Source: an uncultured Chlorobiaceae bacterium
GTDB taxonomy: Bacteria > Bacteroidota > Chlorobiia > Chlorobiales > Chlorobiaceae
Assembly: GCA_903940125.1 (NCBI GenBank)
Contig: CAJAJL010000107.1
Coordinates: forward strand, 1-64,000
DNA length: 64,000 bases
Reading direction: 5' to 3'
Shown here: piece by piece, positions 17,395 to 35,389 of the stretch
Layout: every line of letters begins with the position of its first letter
Position numbering within the stretch: the first letter of the stretch is position 1
Translations under genes and position numbers: made by a program
The notes under the pieces: generated by a model
Databases searched by the model: none
The model's input: only the letters and a program-made list of their open reading frames with translations
What the model was told of the DNA's origin: nothing

Positions 17395-17457
17395 AAACAG
17401 TTTCTTTTCTTAAAACGGGAACAATCGGTAATAAATAACGTAGGTGTTTATTAGATA

Positions 17458-18357
17458 CTATAGGTTAATAATTTTTTTGAGAATTTTTTTTACAGGTTTT
17501 GGAATTAAGCTTTTAAATAAATTTGATGGTCTCAATTCAGTAGGTAAAGAAAATCTATAAGGAGTCATTCTTAAATATTTCCAGTATAAATTTTTATATG
17601 GGTGTATATTTTTTAACTGCCAAGGTTTTGATCCTCCAGTGTAATGAATAATTATCGGTTTATTTTTAGCTTCTCTTAATTCTTCCTTAGTGAAGCAGGA
17701 AAATTTATTTTCATAATTATTGTCAAGAATCATTGTTAAGTTATACTTTAATGGCATTCTTTTCCAGTTTCCATAGATTAGTGCATTCAAGGCATCCTGA
17801 TCAGGAAAGTGTAAGATTTTAAAATTTTTCTCAACAAAATTGATAACTTTTTTATGAAGGTCAGTGTTTCTCCACTTCATTACATTTATAAGCATTACAC
17901 CAGAATTAAAATACCTGAATTTTTTTTCGATTTTTAACTCTTCATATCGATCAAAAAATGGATCTTCAACAGCACAAACGTAATAATCTTCAATATTTTG
18001 ATTATAAATTCCTTTTATCGATCCATTAATTATGATATCAGCATCTAAATAGAGTACTTTTTCTTCATTAATAAGTTCAGGAATTAAAAGGCGATAATAA
18101 ATTTCTTTAGAGTAATGATGCGTTAATACTAACTCTTTAAAATAATTATCTGATATAACTATATTTTCGAGTTGACAGTTATAGGGTTTAATAACAGTAA
18201 GTATATTGGCGTATATATTTTTCGATATCCCACTGTTAATAATATAAATCTTAAATGAAGAGTCTTTGTTGTTGTCTAACAACGATTTTATTGCGGCACA
18301 TAAATGCTGTATGTACTGTTGATTTGTTGCAAAAACAATATTAATAAAATTTTGCAT
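17458..18357 (-). CDS. Glycosyltransferase family 8
   Basis: A 299-residue GT8 enzyme of the LPS galactosyl/glucosyltransferase type. It starts INIVFATNQQYIQHLCAAIK, has the metal-binding DxD at residues 105-107 (LYLDADIII), the conserved RYFNSGVMLINV near residue 147, DQDALN near residue 183, and the C-terminal HYTGGSKPW, where His and Lys contact the nucleotide. All active-site elements are present. The gene is strongly AT-rich compared with the genes on either side, as is the next gene, which suggests both came together from another source. Confidence 0.88.
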   Translation of the reverse strand: MQNFINIVFATNQQYIQHLCAAIKSLLDNNKDSSFKIYIINSGISKNIYANILTVIKPYNCQLENIVISDNYFKELVLTHHYSKEIYYRLLIPELINEEKVLYLDADIIINGSIKGIYNQNIEDYYVCAVEDPFFDRYEELKIEKKFRYFNSGVMLINVMKWRNTDLHKKVINFVEKNFKILHFPDQDALNALIYGNWKRMPLKYNLTMILDNNYENKFSCFTKEELREAKNKPIIIHYTGGSKPWQLKNIHPYKNLYWKYLRMTPYRFSLPTELRPSNLFKSLIPKPVKKILKKIINL

Positions 18358-18384
18358 TTGACTTTATTATTTAAACTAATTCTT

Positions 18385-19428
18385 TTAAATAGAAAGTATT
18401 TTTTTGATTTTTTTTGAAAGCATAATGATGTCATTGTTTTCGCGTTCCTTGGAATATAAGTCAGCTAATGTTTTAATTGCTTTGAGATCAACAATAAATC
18501 CATTATTTGTGTCGAATTTTTTAACTTCTGACATTGCTTCCTTGACAAAACCTTTTATATCGCCCATCATTATTTCTGAAAAAATAGGGGCGCACCAATA
18601 TTCTTTTCCTCCTTCACCCGTATATCCGATTACTTTATTGCCTGTTAACCCGGCCTCTATTGGCGGGAGTCCCCATCCTTCAAGTTCACTGAATGATAAA
18701 AATATTTTTGATTTTTTGAGTATTCCAATAACTTCTTTCTCAGTCATATTATGTATGGGTATAATCTCCCAATGTTTAGGTAGGTGTTGTTCTAAAAAAA
18801 ATAAAACTAATTTAGAATGCCTTGGAAGTTTTCGAGGCATATAGGTGATTACATTGCTTTTGTTAATATCAGGTATAAACTTATTTGAGTCAACAAAAAA
18901 GTGCATGCGCATTATTTTCGATGATAACTCGGGAAATGCTAATGTACAACAATCAGTTGTATCATCAGATATAGTCATAATTATCTCTGCACCATGAAAT
19001 GCAGATAACGTAGATGCATTGTCATTATTTCCAAACAAATAACCATTTTGTAAAAAAATACCGTATTTTATATTGTTTTTTTTACATTGAGGAGCATATC
19101 GTTCAGCCCAAAAATCAGGAATTATTACAAACTCTTTCCTTTGATTAAAGTTTAGATTTCGTTTAAATTCAATTGAGTATTCAAACCAATTACAAAAAAA
19201 ATTTACTTTTTCAGGATGTAAAACTGATGACTTAAATTCAGGAGAAAGTAGTTGGTTGATTTGTTCTGAATGTTTATAAATAACTTTAACACCTCCACTT
19301 GCACCATCTCCTGTATGATCGGATATAGGACATAAATAAGTTATTTTTACTCCTTCAAATATGGAATAATCTATTCCAAATTCTGGTGGCGGATTAATCT
19401 TCTTTCTATTCTTTAAAAAATTTTTCAT
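18385..19428 (-). CDS. GT-B glycosyltransferase-like protein
   Basis: A 347-residue protein resembling the rhamnosyltransferase-type GT-B enzymes found in S-layer and rhamnan loci. The early DGASGGVKVIYKHSEQI is the acceptor-side GG.kVi motif of that group, and SKIFLSFSELEGWGLPPIEAGLTG (residues about 250-273) is the donor-side equivalent of the EX7E region. Central parts are divergent. It is very AT-rich, like the GT8 gene 27 bases downstream, and follows the ABC transporter by about 10 bases. Family level is fairly sure; donor is not. Confidence 0.72.
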   Translation of the reverse strand: MKNFLKNRKKINPPPEFGIDYSIFEGVKITYLCPISDHTGDGASGGVKVIYKHSEQINQLLSPEFKSSVLHPEKVNFFCNWFEYSIEFKRNLNFNQRKEFVIIPDFWAERYAPQCKKNNIKYGIFLQNGYLFGNNDNASTLSAFHGAEIIMTISDDTTDCCTLAFPELSSKIMRMHFFVDSNKFIPDINKSNVITYMPRKLPRHSKLVLFFLEQHLPKHWEIIPIHNMTEKEVIGILKKSKIFLSFSELEGWGLPPIEAGLTGNKVIGYTGEGGKEYWCAPIFSEIMMGDIKGFVKEAMSEVKKFDTNNGFIVDLKAIKTLADLYSKERENNDIIMLSKKIKKILSI

Positions 19429-19438
19429 AATAATTTTT

Positions 19439-21199
19439 TTAATGAAGAATTTTATCTGGGGTACCTTGTGACTTTATCTGGCCGCTTTCAAGTTGATAAA
19501 GTCGGTCACAGTGCTCAATAGTACTGAGCCGGTGAGCAACAATAATAATGGTTTTAGATCCCTGCAGTTCACGCACTGCTTCCATCACTCCTTTTTCTGT
19601 TGCTGTATCAAGTGCACTGGTAGCTTCATCAAGGACAAGAACAGTTGGATCGTGATAGAGCGCGCGTGCTATACCGATTCTTTGCCGTTGACCACCTGAT
19701 AGACGAACGCCCCTCTCTCCAACAACAGTATTAATGCCTTCAGGTAAACTTTGAATAAAATCATCAAGATGTGCTGCTCGAATTGCATTCAAGACAGATT
19801 CTTGGTTAATTTGTTCGCTGGAAAGTCCAAAGGCTATATTGCGAAGCAAAGTATCATCGGTTAGATAAATTGATTGAGGCACATAACCGATTTGATTCTG
19901 CCAAGCTCGAAGATTTTTCTGAATATCATCCCCGTCGACAGATACTACGCCATGATCTGGAGGTAACAGGCCAAGCAGTATATCAACTAATGTACTTTTT
20001 CCTGCGCCGCTTGTACCAATAAATCCTACTGATTCCCCACATTGTATGGTAAGAGAAATATCTTTAAGCGATGGTGAAGACACTCCTGGATATGTATAGG
20101 TAATATGCTGCAACTCAAGGGAATTATGGAAAGAAGATTGTTTAAATTCCTTTTCAATAAGATCAGGCGCATAAAGGATCAGATCTTTTTCAAGTATATC
20201 AATAACCGGCAAACAGTACTTGAGCGATTGCATAACATTCAATAATCGGCTTACTGAGGGCATTAATCGAAAGGTTACAACAGCAAAAAGCCCGAGTTTT
20301 GGAATGATGGTTTCGAGCGCCCCTCCCTGAGCAAGCATAACAAGTACAAGTGCCACAAGACCGCAAACAGCAAGCAACTCAAGCCAGATTCGGGGAAGTT
20401 GTTGAATAGTATTATTTAACCGTCCAACTTTTGTACTTTCTCTATTATGAATATTGTACTGTTTTAAAAATTCATTTTCACGGCCAAGCAATTTGACATC
20501 TTTAGCACCAGCAAGGCCTTGTTGTAAGTGTTGAATACGTAACCCCTCGTGATGTTGGCGGTCCTTCCCCCAGCGACTTATTCTTCCTTCAGTAAAATGA
20601 AAGAAACTCCAGCTTGTTATACCCAAAATACATACAATGGAAATTGTTCCAATTGGTTCAGCCAAAAGCAGCATAAGGCAAAGGCCTGCGACAATCAATG
20701 ATTCAGAAAAAAACTGCATGAGGGGAGTTAACACGCTGCCGGTGAAAATTCCTACTTCATTAGTAACATTCCGAATTAACTGTGCGGAGTTACGCTGTAA
20801 ATGGAAGACATAGGGCTGACGAAGGTAAATGGTAAATAATCGCAATGAGAGTCTTGCACCGATACCGTAAGTAAAGCGATTTTGCTTCCAGACAAGAAAT
20901 ACCAGAAAAATAGCTTTTACAACATAGACACTGAGCAGAAGGAGTAAACCTCCAACGACTAAGCTGTACTGGTCTGGATTACCAAAGAAATTGAGTATTG
21001 GCAGGAGTGCAGGATATTTTGCGGCAAAATTTTTTTGGGTAAAGAGAGAGAGTGCGGGTATCACAAGACCGACTCCAAGCGTTTCAAGACCGACGCCGAT
21101 AAGCATTAAAAAGAAAAGAATAATCGAATTATGACGTTCTCTAGGTAACAGAAGAGACCATATTTTACTAATGTTAGAAAGGGGTGGTATCTTTTTCAT
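19439..21199 (-). CDS. ABC transporter, fused permease and ATPase (MsbA/PglK type)
   Basis: A 586-residue half-transporter that would act as a homodimer to flip a lipid-linked oligosaccharide across the inner membrane. Residues 25-320 hold about six membrane helices. The ATPase domain (360-586) is complete: Walker A GTSGAGKST (395-403), signature LSGGQRQR (499-506), Walker B VLVLDEATSALD (519-530) and the H-loop VAHRLST near residue 563. In this locus, which has no Wzx flippase in the window, it is the best candidate for the flippase, as PglK is in Campylobacter. It lies about 50 bases after the Wza gene. Confidence 0.9.
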   Translation of the reverse strand: MKKIPPLSNISKIWSLLLPRERHNSIILFFLMLIGVGLETLGVGLVIPALSLFTQKNFAAKYPALLPILNFFGNPDQYSLVVGGLLLLLSVYVVKAIFLVFLVWKQNRFTYGIGARLSLRLFTIYLRQPYVFHLQRNSAQLIRNVTNEVGIFTGSVLTPLMQFFSESLIVAGLCLMLLLAEPIGTISIVCILGITSWSFFHFTEGRISRWGKDRQHHEGLRIQHLQQGLAGAKDVKLLGRENEFLKQYNIHNRESTKVGRLNNTIQQLPRIWLELLAVCGLVALVLVMLAQGGALETIIPKLGLFAVVTFRLMPSVSRLLNVMQSLKYCLPVIDILEKDLILYAPDLIEKEFKQSSFHNSLELQHITYTYPGVSSPSLKDISLTIQCGESVGFIGTSGAGKSTLVDILLGLLPPDHGVVSVDGDDIQKNLRAWQNQIGYVPQSIYLTDDTLLRNIAFGLSSEQINQESVLNAIRAAHLDDFIQSLPEGINTVVGERGVRLSGGQRQRIGIARALYHDPTVLVLDEATSALDTATEKGVMEAVRELQGSKTIIIVAHRLSTIEHCDRLYQLESGQIKSQGTPDKILH

Positions 21200-21247
21200 T
21201 GTCAGTGTAACGGTTTCAAATTGCTATTTCTTCTCAGTGTATCGTTA

Positions 21248-22468
21248 TTATTGACCGGATGTTCCTGCTGTTCTAGTGTTGCCTGTGGTGGTACTTGTTC
21301 CTGTTGTGATAGTTGATCCTGTGGTGGTAGTGGTATTTACAAATCCAGTTTGACCCCAGAGTTGGCTTCGTAACTTTGCCATTATACCAAATGTTTCCGC
21401 AGTGGTGGTGCCGAGGCTAAGTACATTGAGAGATGGGAGTAGCTTTTCAAGGGTGTAGTTGAATTTTGCCATACCACTTGGACTGATAAAGACAATATCG
21501 TTCGACATAAGCGTAAAGTTCTGGCTGAAATCACCCCGTTCAAGCAGGTTTCTCAGATCGACCTTGATAACATCGCCTTTGAGACTCTGTTGTCTGATAA
21601 CGAATATATTTTCCGGATTAGCCTGCTTGTTCAGTCCTCCTGCCATCATAATTGCTTTTAGGACATTCATCCCGCCTCTCCTCTGAATGGCACCGGGTGT
21701 AACAACTTCGCCCATGACATAAATTAGGTCATCAGTAGCTTCAGGAATGTAGATCACATCATTATTTCTGATGGGGGCGTTCAAAGCCATATTGCCGTTT
21801 TTAAGAAGATCCTGTAAGTCGATCCAGATGACGGTGTCATTACCCCGGATAATCGCACATTTGGTTAGAGAGGCCTCCTTTCCCTGATCAGGAAGGCCGC
21901 CAGCAAGAGCAAGTGCTTCCAGAAGCGTTCCTTTACCCGGAAAATTGATGACACCCGGTTTGCTGACACGGCCGAGAACAAAAGCCTTATTATTATGAAA
22001 TTCATGAACCTTGACTGTAACTTCAGGTTTTATATAGAGGGATTCCAGTTTTGAAGTTATAACTCTCTGTGCTTCTTCTGGAGTATGGTTCATAACGTTG
22101 AGACTTCCGATTCTCGGAATGGCAATAAATCCGTCAGGGGCAACGACAATGTTTTCCTGTGAAAGCTCCGGTCTGTGCCACACCTGAACACTTACAAAAT
22201 CTCCAGGTCCAAGTCGGTATTGGTAGTTGTCATGAGGGGATAAGGCATCAATTTTCTGGGGGGTTGCAAATTCCTGAGTTTTTATTGGGAGCTCGGCCTT
22301 AAAATCTTTTTCTGGGGTTGTGGGAATTCGTGAAGACTTTGGAGAAATGCCGCTGCAGGATGTCAACAAAACACAAATAAAGGTAATTAAAAACATAGCC
22401 GTGGTTTTAACCACGCGGTCATAGTGGGAAATCGGATTATAGGTGATGCATTCAGTAACTCGGTACAT
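21248..22468 (-). CDS. Wza-like polysaccharide export lipoprotein
   Basis: A 406-residue outer-membrane export protein. Starting at the ATG at 22466-22468 gives a signal peptide with hydrophobic core (AMFLITFICVLLTSC) and lipobox cysteine; a longer frame upstream overlaps the acyltransferase gene and is not needed. A polysaccharide-export domain begins at YRLGPGDFVSVQVWHRPEL, followed by two SLBB domains (around FVLGRVSKPGVINFPG and YVMGEVVTPGAIQRRGG). The last 30 residues are an unusual Thr/Gly-rich tail. With the Wzc-like gene it forms the transenvelope export channel of the Wzy-dependent type. Confidence 0.9.
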   Translation of the reverse strand: MYRVTECITYNPISHYDRVVKTTAMFLITFICVLLTSCSGISPKSSRIPTTPEKDFKAELPIKTQEFATPQKIDALSPHDNYQYRLGPGDFVSVQVWHRPELSQENIVVAPDGFIAIPRIGSLNVMNHTPEEAQRVITSKLESLYIKPEVTVKVHEFHNNKAFVLGRVSKPGVINFPGKGTLLEALALAGGLPDQGKEASLTKCAIIRGNDTVIWIDLQDLLKNGNMALNAPIRNNDVIYIPEATDDLIYVMGEVVTPGAIQRRGGMNVLKAIMMAGGLNKQANPENIFVIRQQSLKGDVIKVDLRNLLERGDFSQNFTLMSNDIVFISPSGMAKFNYTLEKLLPSLNVLSLGTTTAETFGIMAKLRSQLWGQTGFVNTTTTTGSTITTGTSTTTGNTRTAGTSGQ

Positions 22469-22481
22469 GTTATCAAATTCT

Positions 22482-23009
22482 TTAATCTGTTTTTTGAGTA
22501 CTTTTTTTTGCAATAATTTTAGCCGGAATGCCCACGGCAATGGAGTTGTCGGGTACTGGTGACAGGACAACAGCATTTGCCCCGATATCGACATTATTAC
22601 CGATAGTGATATTTCCAAGGATTTTTGCCCCAGCTCCGATGTTGACATTGTTCCCGAAACTTGGGGCGGCTTTTTCTGTAATATTTTTCAGTCCTATGGT
22701 AACGCCGTTGCGGATAATGCAGTTATCGCCGAAACTTGCATACCCGCTTATGATGATATCGCCGAAATGGTCGATACGGAAGTTTCTGCCAACTGGAACT
22801 TCACAGGGGAGTTCGATACCTGTGAGTATCTGGACAATCTTGTAAAGTAGTTTATAGAGCAGTGAAAAAGGTTTACGGATTATGCCGTTTCTGATAGTGT
22901 ACCGCCATCTTCCAAAACGGTAAACGATCATGACCCAGAATCCCTGGCTGTCCCATTTGCCTTCATAGGTTACAAGATCAGCTCGTATGTTTTGGAAGAA
23001 ATTCATCAT
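22482..23009 (-). CDS. Serine acetyltransferase-like hexapeptide transferase
   Basis: A 175-residue acyltransferase of the serine O-acetyltransferase group. It begins with an alpha-helical segment (residues 1-70), then VGRNFRIDHFGDIIISGYA, where the His-containing loop corresponds to the catalytic region, and regular hexapeptides (NVNIGAGAKILGNITIG) closing with the NSIAVGIPAKI cap. It probably acetylates a sugar in the polysaccharide rather than making cysteine, given the context. It starts 3 bases after the GT2 gene and ends 13 bases before the Wza start. Confidence 0.83.
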   Translation of the reverse strand: MMNFFQNIRADLVTYEGKWDSQGFWVMIVYRFGRWRYTIRNGIIRKPFSLLYKLLYKIVQILTGIELPCEVPVGRNFRIDHFGDIIISGYASFGDNCIIRNGVTIGLKNITEKAAPSFGNNVNIGAGAKILGNITIGNNVDIGANAVVLSPVPDNSIAVGIPAKIIAKKSTQKTD

Positions 23010-23012
23010 GCA

Positions 23013-23987
23013 TTACCAAGGGGTTGGAGGTGAAATGCTGCCGAATTTTGTATCCTGAAGTGACTTGACTAATTGTTTGATGACCGAAACTGCTGCCAGG
23101 CGTTTGTTTTTTGCTTCACCAAATGGCAGAAGCAGGTTTTTTATATATCGGGCTGCATACCAGAGCAGTTCAACGCCAGCACTTGAAAGAAGGAGAGCGA
23201 GTCCCTTGTTTTTACGGTAATAGAGCCATTCGCTTCTCATTCTAAAAATAAGTACTTGAGATGCTTTGTTGTCAAATGTTTTGTCTTTTCTTGTTTTGCT
23301 GCTGGCACCGCCAATGTGCATGACTTCGGCATCTGGAATGAAATAAATTTTCCAACCGGCTTTTTTGGCTCTCATGCAGAGATCGGTTTCTTCATAATAG
23401 ATATAAAACCTTTCATCGAATGTACCTATTTCATCAAGCATCTTTTTGCGAACAATGGTGAAGGTGCCCGGTACCCAGTCTACCTCCATTGGTTGATCAT
23501 GAGCAAAACCACCGAATTCATGGTAGTTGATTATCGGTGATTGAGGAAACTTACCCCGTAATCCCGACAAAGTGAGAAGTTTTGAAAGAGCTGAGGGGAA
23601 TCTTCTTGCAGAGGGTTCGAGACTACCTGCAGGAGAAATAATTTTTCCGCCACAGAAACCGCATTGAGGCATTCTATCCATAAATGCTATGCAGTGTTCT
23701 ATAGATAGCGGCTTTATATAGGCATCAGGGTTTAAAAGAAAAATATAGCTGCCTTGCGCGAGAACAAAGGCCTGGTTGTTTGCCGCGGCAAAACCAAGGT
23801 TTTGATGGTTTGCAATCAGGCGGACGGAAGGAAAGTCATTTTTTACCATATCTGCAGAACTGTCATAGGAATTGTTGTCTACGACAAAGACTTCGATAGT
23901 AATCCCTTTACTGTTCTCAAAGAGTGCCTGAAGACAGTTACGAAGAATTTCACGTGTGTTGTAGCTTACAATAACAACGGATACCAT
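23013..23987 (-). CDS. Rhamnosyltransferase-like glycosyltransferase family 2
   Basis: A 324-residue GT2 enzyme of the WbbL/rhamnosyltransferase type. It starts VSVVIVSYNTREILRNCL, has FVVDNNSYDSS near residue 34 and the metal-binding NPDAYIKP near residue 85, then the PG.F..VR.......GxFDExFYIYYEETDLC segment (VPGTFTIVRKKML; IGTFDERFYIYYEETDLC) near 160-190, which holds the catalytic base. A typical role is adding rhamnose to an undecaprenyl-linked GlcNAc early in repeat-unit assembly. It follows the RsbW-like gene by 24 bases in the same operon. Confidence 0.87.
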   Translation of the reverse strand: MVSVVIVSYNTREILRNCLQALFENSKGITIEVFVVDNNSYDSSADMVKNDFPSVRLIANHQNLGFAAANNQAFVLAQGSYIFLLNPDAYIKPLSIEHCIAFMDRMPQCGFCGGKIISPAGSLEPSARRFPSALSKLLTLSGLRGKFPQSPIINYHEFGGFAHDQPMEVDWVPGTFTIVRKKMLDEIGTFDERFYIYYEETDLCMRAKKAGWKIYFIPDAEVMHIGGASSKTRKDKTFDNKASQVLIFRMRSEWLYYRKNKGLALLLSSAGVELLWYAARYIKNLLLPFGEAKNKRLAAVSVIKQLVKSLQDTKFGSISPPTPW

Positions 23988-24011
23988 AATATTCCCTGGG
24001 GGTTTAAGAAT

Positions 24012-24449
24012 TTACGGGTTGTGGTTCTGAGTACAATCAGCTTGCTTTGTCATTGAAATTCGGTTGGTACCCTCTTCCCTCGTATAGGAGATGGAGTCCA
24101 TGAGTTGACGGATAAGTAAAAGACCATATCCATTTTCAGGATAAGTTGAAAAATCGGGTAAAGGGGTATCAGGGTTGAATGGGGAGTTGGTATCGCTGAC
24201 GCTGACTGTAAGCTTGTCATTGTCGGAGTCAAAGCTTATGGTGATTGTTTTGTCCTGTTCAGGGTGTTCCGCATAACGGACTGAGTTAGTAAAAGCTTCA
24301 CTGACGGAAAGCTCAAATGCATCACAGAATCCTGCGTCACTCTGCGAAGGATTGAGAGAGTCGATAAAAATCTCTGCCACCTTTAATGCTACGAGCGAAG
24401 CAAGCCTTACGAAACGAATCTCGGCAGGCAGTGTGATCATAGTGATCAT
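24012..24449 (-). CDS. RsbW-like serine/threonine kinase (anti-sigma/partner-switch ATPase)
   Basis: A 145-residue HATPase_c protein of the RsbW/SpoIIAB class, which phosphorylates a STAS antagonist and binds a second partner. The N-box EAFTNSVRYAEHPE (residues about 51-64) and the G2 box NGYGLLLIRQL (about 117-127) are present. The G1 box, normally DxGxGF, reads DTNSPFN, so its first glycines are missing; nucleotide binding may be altered. The start overlaps the stop of the STAS gene (ATGA), as expected for a kinase and its STAS substrate. No sigma factor is in the window, so the final target is unknown. Confidence 0.83.
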   Translation of the reverse strand: MITMITLPAEIRFVRLASLVALKVAEIFIDSLNPSQSDAGFCDAFELSVSEAFTNSVRYAEHPEQDKTITISFDSDNDKLTVSVSDTNSPFNPDTPLPDFSTYPENGYGLLLIRQLMDSISYTREEGTNRISMTKQADCTQNHNP

Positions 24450-24793
24450 AAGCTGGTATGTTTTTTTTCTGCATTTATTGTTGCAGCTTCAACATCGTCA
24501 TAAATATCAAACAGCTTGTATACTTGGGTAATTTCAAACACTTCCCTGACTTTGTTGTTCATGCAGGCTAATATTACATCTCCCCCCTGAGCTCTTTTTA
24601 CTCGGGCGATGCTGACTATTGCACCAAGACCGCTGCTGTCGAGAAAATCAACTTCCGAAAGATTTATAACAACAGAGGTTGTTGACGCTGCTGCCGATTT
24701 AAATTGCTTCAACTGCAGGGCATTCCTTGCATCAAGGGTGCCTTGAAGGGCGATGACCGTGATGTTGTTAAAGGTATTTTCGCTGATAATCAT
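24446..24793 (-). CDS. STAS domain anti-sigma factor antagonist
   Basis: A 115-residue single-domain STAS protein (SpoIIAA/RsbV-like). VVINLSEVDFLDSSGLGAIVS (split here as VVINLSEVDF and LDSSGLGAIVS, residues 46-66) contains the conserved phosphorylatable serine in DSSGLG. Such a protein cycles between phosphorylation by an RsbW-like kinase and dephosphorylation by a SpoIIE/PP2C phosphatase. Its gene overlaps the RsbW-like gene downstream by 4 bases and the fusion protein gene upstream by 4 bases, so all three are tightly coupled. SpoIIE-type phosphatases are encoded about 4-9 kb upstream. Confidence 0.9.
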   Translation of the reverse strand: MIISENTFNNITVIALQGTLDARNALQLKQFKSAAASTTSVVINLSEVDFLDSSGLGAIVSIARVKRAQGGDVILACMNNKVREVFEITQVYKLFDIYDDVEAATINAEKKHTSL

Positions 24794-26190
24794 GGGTGCG
24801 TATTTGTTTCATGAATTCTATTTAAGAGTGCTTTTATTGTCAGGGCGATATCCTTCATGGGATTGCCGTGAGCGGCATAATACCGTTCAATGATTGCGGT
24901 ATCGCCCGGGTTGACTGGCCACTCTTCGGTTTCAGCATAACTGAATACAGCGGCACGGTACCATGATTTCGTTTTACTGTATTCAGTTATGCTGGAAGGG
25001 GTTGCCACAACCGGCCAACTTCCGATAATGGCAAGCTGCCCGATGAGTACCCTGAAAAGCAGGGTGAAGCGGTCAAGAGAGAGTGCAGATGCAAGGGTGC
25101 TGAAAGGCCCTGTTCGTTCAATTGTTGTTGTTGTCAGTATCAGGTATTTTTCTGAGACTGCAGTGAAGTAGGAATTTGTGCTTTTCTTCCATTTTCCCTG
25201 GAGGATCAGGATTGGGGTGAGAAGCAGAAAAGGAATAAGTTGCAGGGTGATAAGGAGTATCGCGGCGAGTCTGTGTACAATTGATTGAAACAGTGACTTT
25301 GCCGATCCTGATTGATGTATACCCGTTAAGAGATGCGGGTCATCCATTGCAATTGAAATACCGCTTTCCGGCTCAATCAGAATATTTCCAGAGGCTATTT
25401 TGTTTTGAACTTCAAGGTGTTCCCCGATGTATGTATTTTCAAGGACAATACTGCCAATGACCGAGCTCTCCCTGTCGATAATGACATTGCTGCCAATAAC
25501 AGCTTTTGGCCCGATGATTGAGTCTGCAAGTATCTGGACATTATTGCCAATAATGACCGGTTTTCTTATTTCAGCACTTTTGCTTATGACCACGTTTCTG
25601 CCAATATGGCAGTAAGCTTCATTGCTGTAGCCAGGAAGAACGTATGGAGATGATATGTCGTTCAGAATTTCCATGCAGAGCCGATAATAAACATCAATCG
25701 AGTCAAATCCGAGAAGGGATAAAGGAATATTTCCCATATCATGTTGTGTTTCAGTCCGGCTTCCTCTTAATCTGAGAGATCCTCTGTTGGAACTGAGGAT
25801 TTCACCATCAGGTAACGATGCGAAAATTGTTTTGTAGTTATACTGTTTATCGTACTGGATAAAAACAAATCCACTGATGATCAGGATTCTATCCTCTGAA
25901 CAGAAGCGTTGGTTTTTGTCAATGACCGTTTGCAGATCATCAGTGTTCTTGATACTGGCATAGCTTATAGGAATACCCCACCGGTTGCCATTTTCACAGT
26001 AGCGTTCAACATCGCTGAGTGGTCCGTCCATGACAAGCCTGATAGCTTCACTGCCTGCGAGGATCGAAAAGTCAATAAGAAATTCAGCAAAGGGTTTGTT
26101 GCATATCGGGACAAGTAACGGGTGAATGCCTGGGAAAAAATGGTCTAACCATTCATAGTCCTGCTCTCTTATGATAATAAGTGTTTTCAT
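24790..26190 (-). CDS. Degenerate nucleotidyltransferase/left-handed beta-helix/sugar-transferase fusion
   Basis: A 466-residue protein of three parts. Residues 1-170 resemble a sugar-phosphate nucleotidyltransferase (PLLVPICNKPFAEFLIDF matches the PL.p..nKP.l.y motif) but the GxGTRL signature loop is absent. Residues 185-270 form hexapeptide repeats (CHIGRNVVISKSAEI, VIIGNNVQI). After a hydrophobic segment (310-335), residues 360-460 track the C-terminus of WbaP-type sugar transferases: SLDRFTLL where the active enzyme has SIDELPQL, and IIGSWPV where it has LVGPRPP. The catalytic Glu of the Asp-Glu dyad is Arg here. It is therefore likely a scaffold or regulator rather than an enzyme; it sits between two STAS genes. 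Confidence 0.7.
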   Translation of the reverse strand: MKTLIIIREQDYEWLDHFFPGIHPLLVPICNKPFAEFLIDFSILAGSEAIRLVMDGPLSDVERYCENGNRWGIPISYASIKNTDDLQTVIDKNQRFCSEDRILIISGFVFIQYDKQYNYKTIFASLPDGEILSSNRGSLRLRGSRTETQHDMGNIPLSLLGFDSIDVYYRLCMEILNDISSPYVLPGYSNEAYCHIGRNVVISKSAEIRKPVIIGNNVQILADSIIGPKAVIGSNVIIDRESSVIGSIVLENTYIGEHLEVQNKIASGNILIEPESGISIAMDDPHLLTGIHQSGSAKSLFQSIVHRLAAILLITLQLIPFLLLTPILILQGKWKKSTNSYFTAVSEKYLILTTTTIERTGPFSTLASALSLDRFTLLFRVLIGQLAIIGSWPVVATPSSITEYSKTKSWYRAAVFSYAETEEWPVNPGDTAIIERYYAAHGNPMKDIALTIKALLNRIHETNTHP

Positions 26191-26201
26191 GGAACCCTGC
26201 C

Positions 26202-26555
26202 TTATTCCGTACCGTTTGTTTCAAATGATTGTATTGCACTGCCGGTATCGGGAAACATTGAAAAGAGCTTTTTAGCTTTAGTAATTTCAAAAACCATAGA
26301 GACTTTGGGACTGAGATTAGCCAGTTTCAGATCACCGTTGTGTTCAATTGCATTTCGCAGGCAGGAGACGATGGCGCCAAGTCCGCTGCTGTCTATAAAG
26401 TCAAGCCTGGCGCAGTCAAATACAAATAAGCTGGTTTGCTGCTGCCAGAGAGCGAATGATGTTATCAGTTCACTGGAGTTCTTGGAATCAATCCTTCCAA
26501 TTAATGCGGCTATGCCAAGTTTTTTTCCTGTTGAAGTGTCAATGTGAAAAGTCAT
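26202..26555 (-). CDS. STAS domain protein (second copy)
   Basis: A 117-residue STAS protein, paralogous in fold to the other STAS gene in this operon. FVFDCARLDFIDSSGLGAIVS-like core (FIDSSGLGAIVS, residues 53-64) has the conserved serine. It is more divergent in the N-terminal strand (FHIDTSTGKKLGIAALIGRI). It lies between the initiating sugar transferase gene (12 bases upstream) and the fusion gene (11 bases downstream). Two STAS proteins with one RsbW-like kinase suggests either two substrates for one kinase or one acting directly on polysaccharide synthesis, as SypA does in Vibrio fischeri. Confidence 0.88.
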   Translation of the reverse strand: MTFHIDTSTGKKLGIAALIGRIDSKNSSELITSFALWQQQTSLFVFDCARLDFIDSSGLGAIVSCLRNAIEHNGDLKLANLSPKVSMVFEITKAKKLFSMFPDTGSAIQSFETNGTE

Positions 26556-26567
26556 ATTTGTTCTTGG

Positions 26568-27287
26568 TTAATAAGCTCCTCTTCCTGTCAGAACAGCGGG
26601 AATGGTTTTTAAAAGCAGAATAATATCATTCAGAAAACTTGCACTTTGAATATACTGCATGTCGAGTCTGACCTGGTCAGTAAATGGAATATCGCTTCTG
26701 CCACTAACCTGCCAAAGGCAGGTTATGCCGGGTATGACATGAAGCCTCTTGCGCTCTTCAAGAGTGTATTCTCCAACTTCAAGCGGTAAAGGAGGTCGCG
26801 GCCCTACAAGACTCATATCGCCTTTAAGTACATTGATAAGTTGAGGTAGTTCATCTATACTGAATTTGCGGATAATTCTTCCAACCTTCGTTATCCGAGG
26901 GTCCTTTTTCATTTTAAAAATTACGCCTGATGCAGATTCATTATAAGCAGCAAGTTCCTGTTTGATTTTTTCTGCATTGACAACCATGGAACGGAATTTA
27001 TAAAATTTGAAATGCCTCCCGTTCAGGCCTACCCGTATTTGCGTATAGAAAATTGGCCCTGGGTTTTCAACCCAGATGGCAATAGCTGTCAAAATAAGAA
27101 GAGGCAGCAGCATAATCAATGCGAGGCCGGACACGGCAGTATCTAGGAGCCTTTTTAACAGGTAGGAAAACATGATTGTCGTTTCCCATGCTGTGACTTT
27201 AAGGCGCCGTCGGTATCGAAACCGGGGATTGATCGAACTGCTTATTGAGCGAATAAGCTCTTTTCGCACCCTTGGATCAAGTTCCAT
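26568..27287 (-). CDS. Undecaprenyl-phosphate sugar phosphotransferase (WbaP/WcaJ C-terminal type)
   Basis: A 239-residue initiating phosphoglycosyltransferase that moves a sugar-1-phosphate onto undecaprenyl phosphate. It has the re-entrant membrane helix (about residues 39-70), KFYKFRSMVVNAE, the catalytic Asp-Glu in FSIDELPQLINVLKGDMSLVG-type segment (here IDELPQ), VGPRPP, and the C-terminal WQVSGRSDIPF and LDMQYI blocks. The start at the ATG at 27285-27287 is preferred because the longer frame runs back into the WecG gene, whose stop is 4 bases away. It lacks the N-terminal membrane half of full-length WbaP, like PglC-type minimal enzymes. Confidence 0.9.
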   Translation of the reverse strand: MELDPRVRKELIRSISSSINPRFRYRRRLKVTAWETTIMFSYLLKRLLDTAVSGLALIMLLPLLILTAIAIWVENPGPIFYTQIRVGLNGRHFKFYKFRSMVVNAEKIKQELAAYNESASGVIFKMKKDPRITKVGRIIRKFSIDELPQLINVLKGDMSLVGPRPPLPLEVGEYTLEERKRLHVIPGITCLWQVSGRSDIPFTDQVRLDMQYIQSASFLNDIILLLKTIPAVLTGRGAY

Positions 27288-27291
27288 GTGG

Positions 27292-28050
27292 TTACTTATT
27301 ATCCGCCTGATTGAAAATCTCTTTAAGTGCCAAAGGTATAAAACGACTATCTCGTAGTAAATAACGCTTCCAAAGCCGGCCTGGTTCGCTCGCCAATCTC
27401 CATACCCATTCAAATCCAATGTTTTGAATCCAGAGAGGCGCGCGTTTTATTGTCCCTGCGGCAAAATCAAAAGATGCACCGACGCAAAGAACGGGTCCTA
27501 CTTTAAGGCGATGAATGTGGGCGTCTGCCCATTTTTCTTGTTTTGGTGCACCAACACCGATAAAAAGAATATCAACATTTCGTGAATTTATGTCGTCAAT
27601 GATAAGTTCTGTTTCAGTTGGATTATGTTCAAATCCAAAAGGAGGACACCATGTTCCGACTATATTCAATCCATCGTATTGTTGACGCAGTTTATGAGCA
27701 GCCAAATCTGCAATGCCGGGGTTGCCACCCATAAAATACAGATTGAGACCGGTTCCTGCAGATTTTTTACAGAGCGCTATCAGCAAATCAGAGCCTGCAA
27801 CCCTTTCAGGAAGGGGGTTTGCATTCACGAATCGGCTGAGCCAGACAATAGGCATTCCATCAGCGAAACGAAAAAGAGCTTCCTGATATATTCTTCGCAT
27901 TTCAGCATCATCCTGAAGCATAACGATATGGTCAACATTGGGAGTGACAATAATTCCCTTTTGACCTTGTCTTGCAGCATCAAGGATCTGAGATACAGCT
28001 GAAGACATCGTTGCCTGCTCAAAAGAAACCCCTAAAAGTTGAGTTTTCAT
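27292..28050 (-). CDS. WecG/TagA/CpsF family glycosyltransferase
   Basis: A 252-residue GT26 enzyme that transfers N-acetylmannosamine or a related sugar to a lipid-linked acceptor. Family marks are TPNVDHIVMLQDD near residue 36, FADGMPIVWLSRF near 67, VAGSDLL near 84, YFMGGNPGIA near 103, and FIGVGAPKQEKWA near 163. The C-terminal APLWIQNIGFEWVWRLASEP is also conserved. It is the first gene of the main minus-strand operon, followed after 4 bases by the initiating transferase. The 145 bases upstream hold the likely promoter; an AGAGG ribosome-binding sequence lies about 12 bases before the ATG. Confidence 0.9.
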   Translation of the reverse strand: MKTQLLGVSFEQATMSSAVSQILDAARQGQKGIIVTPNVDHIVMLQDDAEMRRIYQEALFRFADGMPIVWLSRFVNANPLPERVAGSDLLIALCKKSAGTGLNLYFMGGNPGIADLAAHKLRQQYDGLNIVGTWCPPFGFEHNPTETELIIDDINSRNVDILFIGVGAPKQEKWADAHIHRLKVGPVLCVGASFDFAAGTIKRAPLWIQNIGFEWVWRLASEPGRLWKRYLLRDSRFIPLALKEIFNQADNK

Positions 28051-28195
28051 AACGTGTTATAACCTCTTCTGAGCGATTACAAATGAAAAAGCTATTCAAT
28101 ACCTAATAATACGGAAATATATACAGGTATGATTCAAAGTTATGACCTGATTCTATAAAAATGGGGTTATAAATTCCTTTCCTATGTTTAAAATA

Positions 28196-29845
28196 TTACT
28201 TCTGTTTTGTTTCGGCAGACCCGATACGGATAATTATACAGGAGAGATCATCATCGAAGATGTCCCTGCCGGAAAACAATGAAATGGCCTTTTTGATTTG
28301 TTCTATTATAGCATCTGGAGGTAACTCATGGTGTTTTTCAATGAGATTGACAAGTCGTTCATCACCGAACATTGTATTGTCAGGTGAACAGGACTCCGTT
28401 AGGCCGTCCGAAAAGAGGACGAGAATATCCTTGTCACAGATCGGATAGGAAACTGTTTGGTACTCTTGATGTTCAATCAGTCCGATGGGAAGGTTTTCGC
28501 CCTTGAGCATAGAGCAGGTTGCAGTATCGGCATGGAAGTGAATGATCGGGGGGTGACCGCAGTCAACTAATGAAAGCTGCCCTGACTCAAGGTCAAGACG
28601 CACAAAGAGCAGTGTTGCAAAGGTACCAAGCTCAATCAGTTCCTTGATGCAAAGTTCATGTACTCCTGCAACAATATCCTGCAGTGCAGGAAGTTCGGTA
28701 CAAGAGTATTTTTTTTGTGCAAGTACCTTCAGAAAGAGTGATTTAATGCCGGCTCCTATCAAGGCAGGGTGTAGTCCGTGCCCCATAACATCCCCGATAA
28801 GTATGTCTGCGTGACGGCTGTCAAAAATGATAAAATCGGTAAAATCACCATCAAGATGACCTGAAGGCACCATCATCCGTCCGATTGAAACTCCCTGCAA
28901 GGTTTCCGGGATGGGGCTCTGGAGCAGCTTTTTTTCAATCTCAGATTCAAACTCCTTCTGCAGGTTGTCGAATCGCAGTCTGCTTTGTTCTTCTTCTACT
29001 CGTGAAGTGATATTTCGCGCAATGATAACTGTGTGTGGCGTGTCATCAATCTGAACGCATCCCCTTGATATCTCGAGGGGAACAGAAGTGCCGTTTTTTC
29101 TTATTCCTTCAATTTGTTGTACCATGCGTTCATCAAAATCAGAGATATTTCCGGAAGGCATGTTGCACAAAAAATAAATATCAAACTTCGGAGAGTCAGG
29201 TGAAATCAGTTCCAGAAAATTCTGTTCATGGTATGTGTCGCGGCTGAATCCGAACAGGTTTTCTGCCGCTGTGTTTCGGTAGATGATGTTTCCCTCATTG
29301 TTGAGCATGAAGACGGCATCATGTGCAGCATCAGTCATTGAGCGGAATTCCTCCTCGCTCCGCTGCAATTTTTTTGCCATGACACTGAGGGTTTCATTTG
29401 CTGTGGTCAGCTCCTGATTTTTAACTGAAAGTTCCTTAAAAAGTTTTTCCCGTTCCGTTTTCAAGCAATAATAGTCAATTGCATCATTCAGTATTTTTTT
29501 AAAAGCGATTGGATCAACTGGTTTTGGAATAAATCGGAAAACCTCGCCACTATTGATGGACTCAATAATCGGGTCGATATCCTGAGAACCGCTGAGAATA
29601 AGTCTTACAATGTCCGGATTTCGCTTTTTAACTTCACCGATCAATTCAAGACCGCTCATTTCCGGCATTCGAAGGTCTGAAACAATTATGGAAACACTGT
29701 TTTTTTCAATAAGCTCGAGTGCGTTCAGGCCATTTTCGGCAAAGAGTCTGTTGTAGACCTCTTTGCGTAGAAATCTGTTTATTGAACTGAGAATGTCTGG
29801 TTCGTCATCCACAAAAAGGATGGTAATCTTGCTATCGGTTGTCAT
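28196..29845 (-). CDS. Response regulator with PAS and SpoIIE-type PP2C phosphatase domains (A)
   Basis: A 549-residue signalling protein. Residues 1-125 form a receiver domain with the acidic pocket in ILFVDDEPDI, the phospho-acceptor Asp in VSDLRMPEMSG and the lysine in FIPKPVDP. A short coiled coil (about 130-170) and a PAS domain (175-300) follow, then a PP2C/SpoIIE phosphatase (about 330-545) with GHLDGDFTDF, IGDVMGHGLHPAL and LVLFSDGLTE, which carry the metal-binding aspartates. The ATG at 29843-29845 overlaps the histidine kinase stop (ATGA) and gives a normal N-terminus. Phosphorylation would set its activity on a phosphorylated STAS protein. Confidence 0.9.
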   Translation of the reverse strand: MTTDSKITILFVDDEPDILSSINRFLRKEVYNRLFAENGLNALELIEKNSVSIIVSDLRMPEMSGLELIGEVKKRNPDIVRLILSGSQDIDPIIESINSGEVFRFIPKPVDPIAFKKILNDAIDYYCLKTEREKLFKELSVKNQELTTANETLSVMAKKLQRSEEEFRSMTDAAHDAVFMLNNEGNIIYRNTAAENLFGFSRDTYHEQNFLELISPDSPKFDIYFLCNMPSGNISDFDERMVQQIEGIRKNGTSVPLEISRGCVQIDDTPHTVIIARNITSRVEEEQSRLRFDNLQKEFESEIEKKLLQSPIPETLQGVSIGRMMVPSGHLDGDFTDFIIFDSRHADILIGDVMGHGLHPALIGAGIKSLFLKVLAQKKYSCTELPALQDIVAGVHELCIKELIELGTFATLLFVRLDLESGQLSLVDCGHPPIIHFHADTATCSMLKGENLPIGLIEHQEYQTVSYPICDKDILVLFSDGLTESCSPDNTMFGDERLVNLIEKHHELPPDAIIEQIKKAISLFSGRDIFDDDLSCIIIRIGSAETKQK

Positions 29846-31887
29846 GGTTGGTTTATTGCTTTGTTTTGCTTGATAGGAAGCATTATGGTAAAAACAGTAC
29901 CGCCCTCCTTCGGACAATGAACGCTGAGCCTTCCGTTATGCTTGTTGACAATGATGTCATAGGAGATGCTGAGTCCAAGTCCAGTTCCTTGTCCAGGACT
30001 TTTAGTGGTAAAAAAAGGTTCGAAAATGTGTTCCTGGATTTCAGGCGGAATACCTGGTCCATCATCAGCAATGGAACAAAAGACATAGCAGCTGTCTTTC
30101 CAGGTATTGATGACAATATTACCGTTCGAAGTTTTCATTTGCGAAACTATGGCATGTGCACTGTTGATAATCAGGTTCAGAATCACCTGATTAAGTTGCT
30201 CCGGATTGCATGGAACAAGCGGCAGCTCCTTAAGGTTGGTTTCAATATCAGCACAATAACGGTATTCATTTCGAGCAATGATCAGCGTGTCACGGATTCC
30301 TTTGTTAATATCGAAAAGAACCTTCTCCTCAAAAGCGTGCTTGTAAGCGAAGTTCCGCATGCTGTTGATAATTGTTGTGATTCGTTCGAACCCGCGTTGT
30401 GACTCGGTAAAAATTTTTGGAAGATCATCAAGCAAGGTATTGAGGTTAAGGTCGTGTTCTAGTTGTGTCAGCTTAAGCAGTTCTTTATGAAACAAAGTTT
30501 CGTTATCAATTTTTTTTATGAAGTTGCGGTACTCATGAAGGATAATCAGCAGATCTGAAATGTTTTCCTCCTGAGTTGCGAAATTGATCTTTATAAAATT
30601 AAGGGGATTATTAATTTCGTGTGCGATACCGGCAGCAAGTTGACCGATTGATGCAAGCTTTTCCTGTTGTATAATTTGCTGCTGGCTTATTGCAAGATCT
30701 TTTGTTCGTTCATCTACCCTTTGCTCCAGTGTCTTGTTAAGCTCCTGCAGTTTTGCTTCAGCCTCTTTGCGTTCGCTGATGTCGAGTACAATTCCCCGGA
30801 TGCCGATAAGCTTTCCGTTCTCGACAATCCGTGATGTGTAAACAAGTATAGGAAATGAAGTGCCATCTTTTTTCAGGCCGGTGTATTCGTGATTATCAAA
30901 CGGCAGGTTTTTTAAGCGTTGCTGCATGTTGAACTGCACCTTTTCGCGATCTTGAGGTGCAAAAAGCTGAATGCTGGAAACCCCTTTTTGTAAATTTTCT
31001 TTTGTGTACCCGAAAGTTTCAAAACCCATGCGGTTAGTGAAGGTAATCATGCCTTGCATATCCATTTCAAAAATGGTCTGCGGAAGAAGATCAGCCAGGT
31101 CATGAAACCTCATTTGGCTCGCAGCAAGTTCGGTCTGTTTCTTTTTATTCTCCGTTATATCCTGTTTGATGCCAATAAAATGAGAAATTTTGTTATTGAT
31201 ACCGGTGATCGGGCTGATAGTAGAGAGTTCCCAGAAAAGCTCTCCTTTTTTATTTTTATTTATTAATTCTCCCTTCCAAATATGGCCCGATCGTATGGTT
31301 TTCCAGAGGTTTTTATAAAAAGCTGGTGAATGTTTTCCAGATTTCAGAACACTCGGGGTTTTGCCGATGACTTCTTTTTCAGTATATCCTGAAATAGAGG
31401 TGAATGCCGGGTTGATATATTTTACAATTCCATTGATGTCAGTTATAACAATAGATAATGGATTTTGAGAGATAGCAGAGGAAAAAAGTTTGAAGTTTTT
31501 CCGGAGTTCCGATTCCGCTAACACATTCTTTATCGTAACGGCCAGCTTATCAGGATTTACAGGTTTTATTAAAAAGTCGTAAGCACCCATTTTAAGAGAT
31601 TCGACTGCCTGCTCAATATCATTGGAACCGGAAATCATGATGACTGGAATACTGAAATGATGATCACGAAGATAGGAAAGAACTTCCATGCCATTTTTTC
31701 CACTCATATTGATATCGAGAAGCAGAAGATCGATCCGATGAGCGTTTATGATCTCTATGCAGGCATTTCCATCAGAGGCCATCATGAAATTTTGCCCCAG
31801 CTTTTTGACAATACTTGATAAAAGGGTACGTATTATCTTGCTGTCATCAACGACAAGGATAGTAGCTTTCTCTTCAGGGTCATGCAT
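29842..31887 (-). CDS. Hybrid sensor histidine kinase: receiver, PAS domains, HisKA, HATPase
   Basis: A 681-residue kinase. A receiver domain comes first ([12 protein letters not shown]; acceptor Asp in [20 protein letters not shown]), then PAS/PAC units at about 130-255 and 265-385, the second with an [13 protein letters not shown] linker into a coiled coil. The phospho-acceptor His lies in [17 protein letters not shown] near residue 430; the ATPase domain has the N-box [28 protein letters not shown] and GTGLGLSIS. An N-terminal receiver on a kinase suggests it is itself controlled by another kinase. It is translationally coupled to the phosphatase regulator downstream and probably phosphorylates it and its paralogue. 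Confidence 0.92.
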
Positions 31888-31947
31888 GTTTCAGTAAAGA
31901 TTAAGACCATTTTTTTCTTGCAAATTCTCTATAACAAGCACTACACT

Positions 31948-33657
31948 CTAAAGCTGTAACTCAACTGCACTCTCACAGAGAATGTTTCTGTTGAGGTCTT
32001 GATTTCCGATACGAATGACGATACAGGTCAGATCGTCGTCGAAGGTATTTCGACCGGTAAAGGCGCAGGCTGCTTCATGAATTTTTTCAACTATTTCAGA
32101 TGGTTCAAGTTCATGATACGTCAGCATCAATTCAGAAACCCGTTCTATACCAAAAAACCTGTTATCTGGTGATCGACTTTCAGTCAGGCCGTCAGAAAAA
32201 AGAATGATAAGATCGTTCTTGTCTATAGGGAACGAAACGGCACAATAGTCACTCTGTTCAATCAAGCCAATAGGCAGGTTATGGCCTTTGATAAGCGTTC
32301 TTTTTTTTGTCTTTGCATTGAAATGAATTGTTGGATTATGACCGCAATCAACAGTAATGATCTGTCCGGCATCAAGATCTATCCGAAGAAAAGTGGCTGT
32401 AGCATAGGTCTCAAGCTCAATCAGTTCAGTAATGATCTCATCATGGACACCGGCAACGATGTCCTGCAGTAATGCCAGCTTATTGAATTGAAAATTTTTT
32501 TGTGCCGATATTTTCATGATAAGGGATTTCAAGCCTGCCCCGATCAGTGCTGACATAACCCCATGACCCATAACATCACCGATAACCAAATCAATAAGTT
32601 CTTCAGAATAGGTAATCATTGCGGTAAAATCACCGTCAAGATGACCAGAGGGAATCATAAGTCGGCTGATTGAAACCTTTTCCAGCATATTTGAAAGTCG
32701 GCCCTGAAGCAACTTTTTTTCGATTTGAGCTTCAAGTTCCTGCTGCATTCTTTCATACTCCATTCTGCTTTTTTCTTCTCTGAGCCGGGAAGTAATGTCT
32801 CTGGCAATGATAACAATTTTGCAGATGCCATCGATAATGACCGAACCCATGGTTGCTTCCATAGGTATATGGCTCGCATCTTTTTTAAGTGCAGTGAATC
32901 GCTTGACCAGATGTTTTTTATTTGTCTCGGGATTATTTGGAAGAAAATCACAGATGAAATCTATAAAAGGGGTTCCATCGCTTTCCGGAGCGATCAGCTC
33001 TTTAAACTTGATCGAATGCAGCTCATCGTCCGTGAAGTCAAAAAGGTCTTTGGCGGCACTATTGGTATAACTGATGAATCCATCCTGATCGACCATGAAA
33101 ATCGGGTCAAGAGCTGCGTCGTTCATCGAACGAAACTCTATCTCGCGCTCTCGCAGTTCATCAGTCATAACTGCCAGAGCTTCATTCGACCAGGAAAGCT
33201 GCTTGTTGTTCATTTCAAGTTGAGCTTGAAGATGTCTTCGTTCAGTTTTCAAAAAATAATAATCGATGCAGTCGTTTATTATTCGTTTAAGAAGATCCGG
33301 CTCAACTGGCTTTGAAATAAATCGAAAAACTTCACCGCTATTGATGGCATCAATAATCATCGCGATATCTTCAGTTCCACTGAGAATCACGCGTATAATA
33401 TCAGGATGTTTGGCTTTCAGTTGTTGTATCAGTTCCAGTCCACTTATTTCTGGCATTCTAAGGTCTGTGATGACAACCTCACAGGTAATCAATTCAAGTA
33501 ATTCAAGTGCTTGATGCCCACTGGAAGCCACATGCAGCTTATATGGCTCCTTGCGAAGGAGGCGCTTTAACGCTGAGAGGGCATAACTTTCGTCATCGAC
33601 AATGAGGATGCTGATATCAGCAATATTTTGTACAAGTTGGCCGTCGCAATGGTACAT
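31948..33657 (-). CDS. Response regulator with PAS and SpoIIE-type PP2C phosphatase domains (B)
   Basis: A 569-residue paralogue of the regulator on the other side of the kinase gene, with the same order: receiver (ILIVDDESYALSAL, ITDLRMPEISG, FISKPVEP), coiled-coil linker, PAS (FRSMNDAALDPIFMVDQDG), then SpoIIE phosphatase with GHLDGDFTAM, IGDVMGHGVMSAL and LFSDGLTESRSPDN. All metal-binding aspartates are present. I chose the ATG at 33655-33657 (MYHCDGQLVQ); an upstream in-frame start would add 30 residues of unlikely sequence. Having two near-parallel phosphatases around one kinase suggests they split its signal between two targets, for instance the two STAS proteins. Confidence 0.9.
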   Translation of the reverse strand: MYHCDGQLVQNIADISILIVDDESYALSALKRLLRKEPYKLHVASSGHQALELLELITCEVVITDLRMPEISGLELIQQLKAKHPDIIRVILSGTEDIAMIIDAINSGEVFRFISKPVEPDLLKRIINDCIDYYFLKTERRHLQAQLEMNNKQLSWSNEALAVMTDELREREIEFRSMNDAALDPIFMVDQDGFISYTNSAAKDLFDFTDDELHSIKFKELIAPESDGTPFIDFICDFLPNNPETNKKHLVKRFTALKKDASHIPMEATMGSVIIDGICKIVIIARDITSRLREEKSRMEYERMQQELEAQIEKKLLQGRLSNMLEKVSISRLMIPSGHLDGDFTAMITYSEELIDLVIGDVMGHGVMSALIGAGLKSLIMKISAQKNFQFNKLALLQDIVAGVHDEIITELIELETYATATFLRIDLDAGQIITVDCGHNPTIHFNAKTKKRTLIKGHNLPIGLIEQSDYCAVSFPIDKNDLIILFSDGLTESRSPDNRFFGIERVSELMLTYHELEPSEIVEKIHEAACAFTGRNTFDDDLTCIVIRIGNQDLNRNILCESAVELQL

Positions 33658-33915
33658 AAAGGGGGCTATATGATTAAAATTGCTTATGTTGCGCCAGGAA
33701 AAAACCACAAGGATATAATTTTCAGAGAGATCCCCTGCAGTTTTCAATCTGATTTCATCTCATAATCAGGCTTTCACTCCTTTTGTCATTCAGAATTACG
33801 AAGCATACCATAACGGAAAATAAGTCATATTTAACTTTATAACAGTTTTTTTTATAGGCTTTTGACCCAAGTTTGCTGATGGGGTGGTTTTAGTTGGCAC
33901 TCTCAGGGGAATAAA

Positions 33916-33941
33916 AAAAGGAGCCTTGCGACTCCTTTTTC
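33916..33941 (-). terminator. Rho-independent terminator of the porin gene
   Basis: Nine-base stem AAAAAGGAG/CTCCTTTTT with an 8-base loop, flanked by a further A run that becomes a T run on the minus strand. It lies about 50 bases past the porin stop. It is the only structured element I see in the 332-base stretch between the porin and phosphatase B (33658-33989); the rest should hold the promoter of the signalling genes, but no clear -35/-10 pair stands out. Confidence 0.75.
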
Positions 33942-33989
33942 ATATTGTAACCTAACGGGAAGAAAGAACAGGGGAAGAAAGATTATGCA

Positions 33990-34670: not shown

Positions 34671-34936
34671 TGCTTTACTCCTGGTTCTGTTTTTTCAGTT
34701 GTGTGTGTTCAGTCGTTGTATTGTAACTTGATCCATAAAAAACTTTCACATTCCTTAAGAGATCGTCCTGATAAAATATAAATATATTATAAAAAAATAC
34801 AAATAAGTAATAAAATATTAGGTCTATTCGTTTGGTATGTTAAAAAATGAAGGTGATGGTCACGGTTTTGTGTTTGCTGGTTCAGCAGTATCGTCGTAAC
34901 TTCATTCTTTATTCCATCAATATCGAAACGGAATCC

Positions 34937-35350: not shown

Positions 35351-35389
35351 GAATTCAGTTATCCTCGCTATCCCGCTTAATATTTAATA

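Follow-up and report, generated by a model that had tools for sequence, protein, structure and literature searches.

A partner switch in a green sulfur bacterial polysaccharide operon is linked to a phosphoglycosyl transferase and a probable double pseudoenzyme

Partner-switching genes embedded in a polysaccharide operon that encodes no sigma factor raise the question of what such a switch controls. The window, the whole stretch of 64,000 nucleotides analysed here, is part of contig C107 within a 2.98 Mb genome whose nearest matches are Chlorobiaceae. It contains an operon on the minus strand that runs in the order SpoIIE_A, histidine kinase, SpoIIE_B, WecG, PHPT, STAS2, the fusion protein FUS, STAS1 and RsbW, and continues downstream of RsbW with genes for polymer assembly and export:

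31948..33657, minus strand: SpoIIE_A, a REC-PAS-SpoIIE (PP2C-type) phosphatase (Pfam Response_reg 5e-24, SpoIIE 4e-38); start checked, likely ATG at 33657
29842..31887, minus strand: REC-PAS-PAS-HisKA-HATPase histidine kinase (Pfam), the proposed input
28196..29845, minus strand: SpoIIE_B, a REC-PAS-SpoIIE phosphatase (Pfam SpoIIE 4.3e-40)
27292..28050, minus strand: WecG/TagA/CpsF glycosyltransferase (Pfam 3.9e-60)
26568..27287, minus strand: PHPT, a small monotopic phosphoglycosyl transferase with a DE dyad (SIDELPQ; Pfam Bac_transf 2.5e-66); start checked, likely ATG at 27287; the enzyme proposed to be under control
26202..26555, minus strand: STAS2, with DSSGLG (Pfam STAS 9e-15)
24790..26190, minus strand: FUS, a degenerate nucleotidyltransferase domain, left-handed beta-helix, membrane helix and degenerate PHPT domain; proposed to serve STAS as receptor or adaptor
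24446..24793, minus strand: STAS1, with DSSGLG (Pfam STAS 4.7e-20)
24012..24449, minus strand: RsbW-like serine kinase (HATPase_c_2; Pfam 8.4e-23)
23013..23987, minus strand: GT2 glycosyltransferase, kept downstream of RsbW
22482..23009, minus strand: hexapeptide acyltransferase, same operon
21248..22648, minus strand: Wza-like polysaccharide export protein, given as the open reading frame (true start probably internal)
15115..21199, minus strand: ABC transporter, glycosyltransferases and Wzc-like protein, same operon

Intergenic gaps in the operon are small, with 145 bases between SpoIIE_B and WecG, and four-base ATGA overlaps join RsbW to STAS1, STAS1 to FUS and the histidine kinase to SpoIIE_B. 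The sequence-only reading had described this set as a partner-switching circuit encoded together with polysaccharide assembly genes, several of them overlapping, and most of that description was borne out. Pfam recovered both STAS proteins, each with an intact DSSGLG motif, the RsbW-like kinase (HATPase_c_2), whose E/N and G boxes are conserved in alignment, and REC, PAS and SpoIIE domains in both phosphatases. The histidine kinase had been called a hybrid; the kinase stood, but its receiver is N-terminal and none is present at the C terminus, making it a REC-sensor kinase. The only two SpoIIE domains in the genome, and two of its three STAS_2 matches, lie at this locus, and the gene order is kept in 20 loci of the family; the grouping of regulatory and polysaccharide genes is therefore not by chance. 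A second RsbW-like ATPase is encoded nearby on the plus strand (34847-35350, HATPase_c_2 1.8e-18), upstream of phosphoglucose isomerase and with no STAS gene adjoining; it could also act as a kinase on the STAS proteins, or it could be a regulator with no connection to them. No Rfam elements were found in 20000-36000, and a promoter scan, which gave 31 sites against 23 in shuffles (sd 4.7), a slight excess, was left unused.

The locus has the components of an RsbU/V/W-type partner switch: STAS proteins with a phosphorylatable serine (D-S-[ST]-G), a GHKL serine kinase and SpoIIE/RsbU PP2C phosphatases. It lacks what would make it a SigB/SigF-type sigma-factor switch. A sigma-70 region 2 search of the genome returned one RpoD-like and three ECF-like factors, all on other contigs, and no SigB/SigF-type factor in the operon or the genome, in agreement with the earlier observation that the window holds no sigma factor.

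The central protein is FUS, which has 466 residues and in which Pfam flagged the hexapeptide helix only. In alignment, its degenerate nucleotidyltransferase domain is followed by a beta-helix, then by a hydrophobic helix near residues 297-330 and a C-terminal PHPT-like domain. The last matched Bac_transf in 15 of 15 Chlorobi members scanned (best 1.5e-7), and relatives from Chloroflexota matched both NTP_transferase (3e-25) and Bac_transf (2e-20) strongly; both results rule out reading FUS as a plain nucleotidyltransferase gene annotated by its beta-helix. Searched against the PDB, a profile of 40 members hit UTP-glucose-1-phosphate uridylyltransferase over residues 1-282 (2e-32), and its C-terminal part hit PglC (5e-15) and WbaP (4e-13). 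Predicting the structure from 15 Chlorobi sequences gave a poor model (pLDDT 55), which was replaced by one from the 40-sequence alignment (pLDDT 77), in which the beta-helix part reaches only 50-60. Foldseek with this better model placed nucleotidyltransferases at the top and PglC at rank 42.

Both enzyme domains of FUS have lost residues needed for membership of their classes. The Asp-Glu pair that forms the catalytic dyad of phosphoglycosyl transferases (PMC10942596) is intact in none of 40 FUS homologues, all of which carry Arg, Lys or His at the Glu position, and FUS accordingly falls outside the monotopic phosphoglycosyl transferases. It also falls outside the NDP-sugar nucleotidyltransferases: the GxGTRL-type signature is gone in the members displayed, including those from Chlorobi and Chloroflexota, and the metal-binding Asp is absent in 36 of 40 and kept in 4. 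The neighbouring PHPT and 71 PHPT-family open reading frames examined all retain DE, and with its Bac_transf domain and dyad the window PHPT classes as a monotopic phosphoglycosyl transferase. Because dyad, signature and, in 36 of 40, metal-binding Asp are lost, both domains are probably dead, and FUS is most likely a double pseudoenzyme, catalytically inactive at both ends. This probable double pseudoenzyme and the extension of the module to other phyla are additions to the sequence-only reading.

Within Chlorobiaceae, PHPT-STAS2-FUS-STAS1-RsbW are consecutive in the 20 loci compared, down to about 43% FUS identity, and GT2 follows RsbW directly or one gene beyond in all but one of them. SpoIIE is present in 29 of 29 family genomes with full-length FUS compared to 14 of 44 without (Fisher p = 5e-10, a significance that kinship inflates). 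The DSSGLG motif of STAS2 is found in 21 of 21 aligned sequences and that of STAS1 in nearly all, the exceptions being DSTGLG in L054 and DSSGLR in L052, both of which retain the serine. In Chlorobaculum-type loci, extra STAS genes or STAS-RsbW pairs stand behind the block (L080:12094 (=L056), L081:12268-13137, L094:11064-11621); in the extra STAS of L056, DEEGLE replaces DSSGLG and resembles a permanently phosphorylated form.

The sequence-only reading had also suggested searching other genomes for the same gene set, and the PHPT-STAS-FUS core recurs well beyond these Chlorobiaceae loci. A scan of our genome collection found full-length FUS in Desulfobacterota (about a dozen of 395 genomes sampled), Chloroflexota (18 of 400), Cloacimonadota, Armatimonadota and Lentisphaerota, and there too it adjoins PHPT, usually with STAS. 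Counted by hand, with "near" defined as within a gene or two, STAS lies near 44 of 50 non-Chlorobi FUS loci compared to 0 of 13 PMM-type nucleotidyltransferases, partial matches to FUS that served as controls (p = 3e-9). Six loci had no STAS; L143 and L162 are at contig ends, an explanation that does not apply to L111, L182, L185 and L186. Across 17 genomes, STAS adjoins all five PHPT genes that have FUS and none of the 24 that do not (p = 8e-6), which rules out STAS adjacency as a general trait of initiating transferases. The D-S context of the phosphorylated serine is retained in stand-alone STAS proteins across phyla, with L169 as the exception. The Cloacimonadota and Armatimonadota loci showed no RsbW or SpoIIE beside STAS-FUS, so a kinase would have to act there from elsewhere.

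Through gene fusions, STAS and dead PHPT domains are physically joined to polymer-assembly enzymes. WecG carries two C-terminal STAS domains in Chloroflexota and one in a Desulfobacterota locus (L136), and in many Chlorobiaceae its N terminus bears a degenerate PHPT domain that lacks the Asp-Glu dyad, adding another dead PHPT to the locus:

L113:2740-4302, L116:7708-9183, L136:2967-4457: WecG with C-terminal STAS, one or two copies
L073:7457-8893, L082:7153-8883, L079:6991-8895, L053:5883-7652: WecG fused to a degenerate PHPT domain

Where Chloroflexota WecG carries a pair of STAS domains, the second no longer has an Asp before the Ser (ASAG or SSAG).

Since the switch is locked beside a polymer-starting enzyme and a probably dead fusion protein in green sulfur bacteria and in unrelated groups, the conserved linkage suggests that it controls polymer synthesis directly and not via transcription. 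We consider it somewhat better than an even bet, with a probability of roughly 0.55, that a non-sigma partner switch sets the activity of a polymer-initiating complex, and we infer that it does so post-translationally, as the sequence-only reading had proposed. Judged by the protein families, the REC-PAS-PAS histidine kinase would sense a signal and phosphorylate the receivers of both SpoIIE phosphatases; the RsbW-like kinase would phosphorylate the serine of DSSGLG in STAS1 and STAS2, and the phosphatases would remove the phosphate from both. Free STAS would then leave RsbW and dock on FUS, which, as a putative membrane-bound double pseudoenzyme, may pair with the live PHPT (and WecG). Either STAS-bound FUS would permit, or phosphorylated STAS would block, the initial transfer of a sugar phosphate to undecaprenyl phosphate, and polymer output would thus be set without transcription. 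The directions of phosphorylation, contact between STAS and FUS and the sign that control would take are what we infer here; if the system worked as SypA does, unphosphorylated STAS would promote polymer (PMC10120452).

On the comparative evidence, with STAS beside PHPT and FUS across phyla and STAS-WecG fusions, the STAS output probably falls on FUS and, via FUS, on PHPT and WecG, lending support to the earlier suggestion that the targets might be the fusion protein and the initiating transferase. More tentatively, and at a little under even odds, FUS may be a dedicated STAS receptor. As a double pseudoenzyme, it would pass the state of a Ser-phosphorylation partner switch on allosterically to the first committed step in making a surface polymer. 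At least six phyla would use this arrangement, and the fusions of WecG to STAS or to a dead PHPT would be variant forms of one complex. Neighbours in an operon can be co-transcribed without contact, and sugar nucleotides could be what FUS binds, in place of STAS or alongside it.

The classical parts, STAS, HATPase_c_2 kinase and SpoIIE, would also suit an ordinary partner switch in which RsbW is an anti-sigma factor and STAS frees a distantly encoded sigma factor for the polysaccharide operon or other genes. Partner switches with distantly encoded sigma factors occur in other bacteria, and STAS could act here on an ECF or RpoD factor. We consider this unlikely, given a genome with RpoD-like and ECF-like factors only and none of the SigB/SigF group, and it leaves unexplained both the tracking of STAS with FUS across phyla and the fusion of STAS to WecG.

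That fusion, in Chloroflexota and L136, together with the degenerate PHPT domain on WecG in many Chlorobiaceae, would also fit a switch acting straight on WecG or PHPT, with FUS as an independent structural subunit to which STAS does not bind; stand-alone STAS genes kept beside FUS at L103 and L107, where a nearby WecG was not detected, speak against it, and we regard it as quite unlikely. It is highly improbable that the regulatory genes share the operon for co-expression only and have their output elsewhere, for example in flagella, stress or second messengers, since order and adjacency persist across phyla despite differing flanking genes. A partner switch can nonetheless serve a different output: a genome of the Chlorobium group (G021) encodes a REC-PAS-SpoIIE, STAS and RsbW set (L192:8200-10751) away from polysaccharide genes, with no FUS or PHPT within 20 kb.

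If control of the initiating complex by the switch is correct, bacteria could start or stop making a capsule or matrix by phosphorylating proteins at the enzyme that initiates it, with no sigma factor. Several single-domain STAS proteins, SypA included, have no known target, and FUS and PHPT would be testable candidates. The candidate target class is a polymer-initiating phosphoglycosyl transferase with a pseudoenzyme partner, for which the loci above give a conserved minimal gene set. We found no paper on the PHPT-STAS-FUS module in the open-access literature, a scope in which absence is no proof.

Among enzymes, the window PHPT is a normal small monotopic member of the PglC/WbaP group, whereas the C-terminal domain of FUS is homologous to it and lacks the Asp-Glu dyad. 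GMPPA carries a beta-helix. It is a non-catalytic regulator of GMPPB, a dead nucleotidyltransferase acting on a live enzyme (PMC11228364). The parallel with FUS is by analogy only, since a PHPT domain and control by STAS are both absent from GMPPA.

Among regulatory systems, Bacillus RsbV/RsbW/RsbU and SpoIIAA/SpoIIAB/SpoIIE share the STAS, serine kinase and PP2C families and the phosphoserine motif, but the window genome has no cognate SigB/SigF-type sigma factor and its switch is tied to PHPT and FUS. HmpU/HmpW/HmpV of Nostoc punctiforme resembles the window locus as a partner switch linked to polysaccharide, and a STAS-glycosyltransferase fusion, all4160, is on record in Anabaena (PMC8256260). 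No FUS is described for either, and the STAS domain of all4160 is N-terminal while that of the WecG fusions found here is C-terminal.

The closest likeness, already drawn by the sequence-only reading, is to SypE/SypA of Vibrio fischeri, which has a STAS output in the syp polysaccharide locus and no sigma factor (PMC10120452, PMC4517449); a 2024 review gives the target and level of action of SypA as still unknown (PMC11112999). Both systems combine a conserved-Ser STAS, an RsbW-like kinase, a receiver-bearing PP2C phosphatase and a histidine-kinase input within a polysaccharide locus. The contrast with separate proteins was also upheld by the Pfam domain layout: SypE is one tripartite protein, whereas the window locus encodes its kinase apart from its phosphatases, has two of the latter and two STAS proteins, and adds FUS as a new element. 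Judged by sequence, the PHPT-FUS-linked switch belongs to the partner-switching families and resembles SypE/SypA, yet is a distinct system. In a Desulfotignum bin, a single Hpt-REC-SpoIIE-HATPase_c_2 protein stands beside PHPT-STAS-FUS (L110:5601-7649), an arrangement nearer to the SypE plan than that of the window locus.
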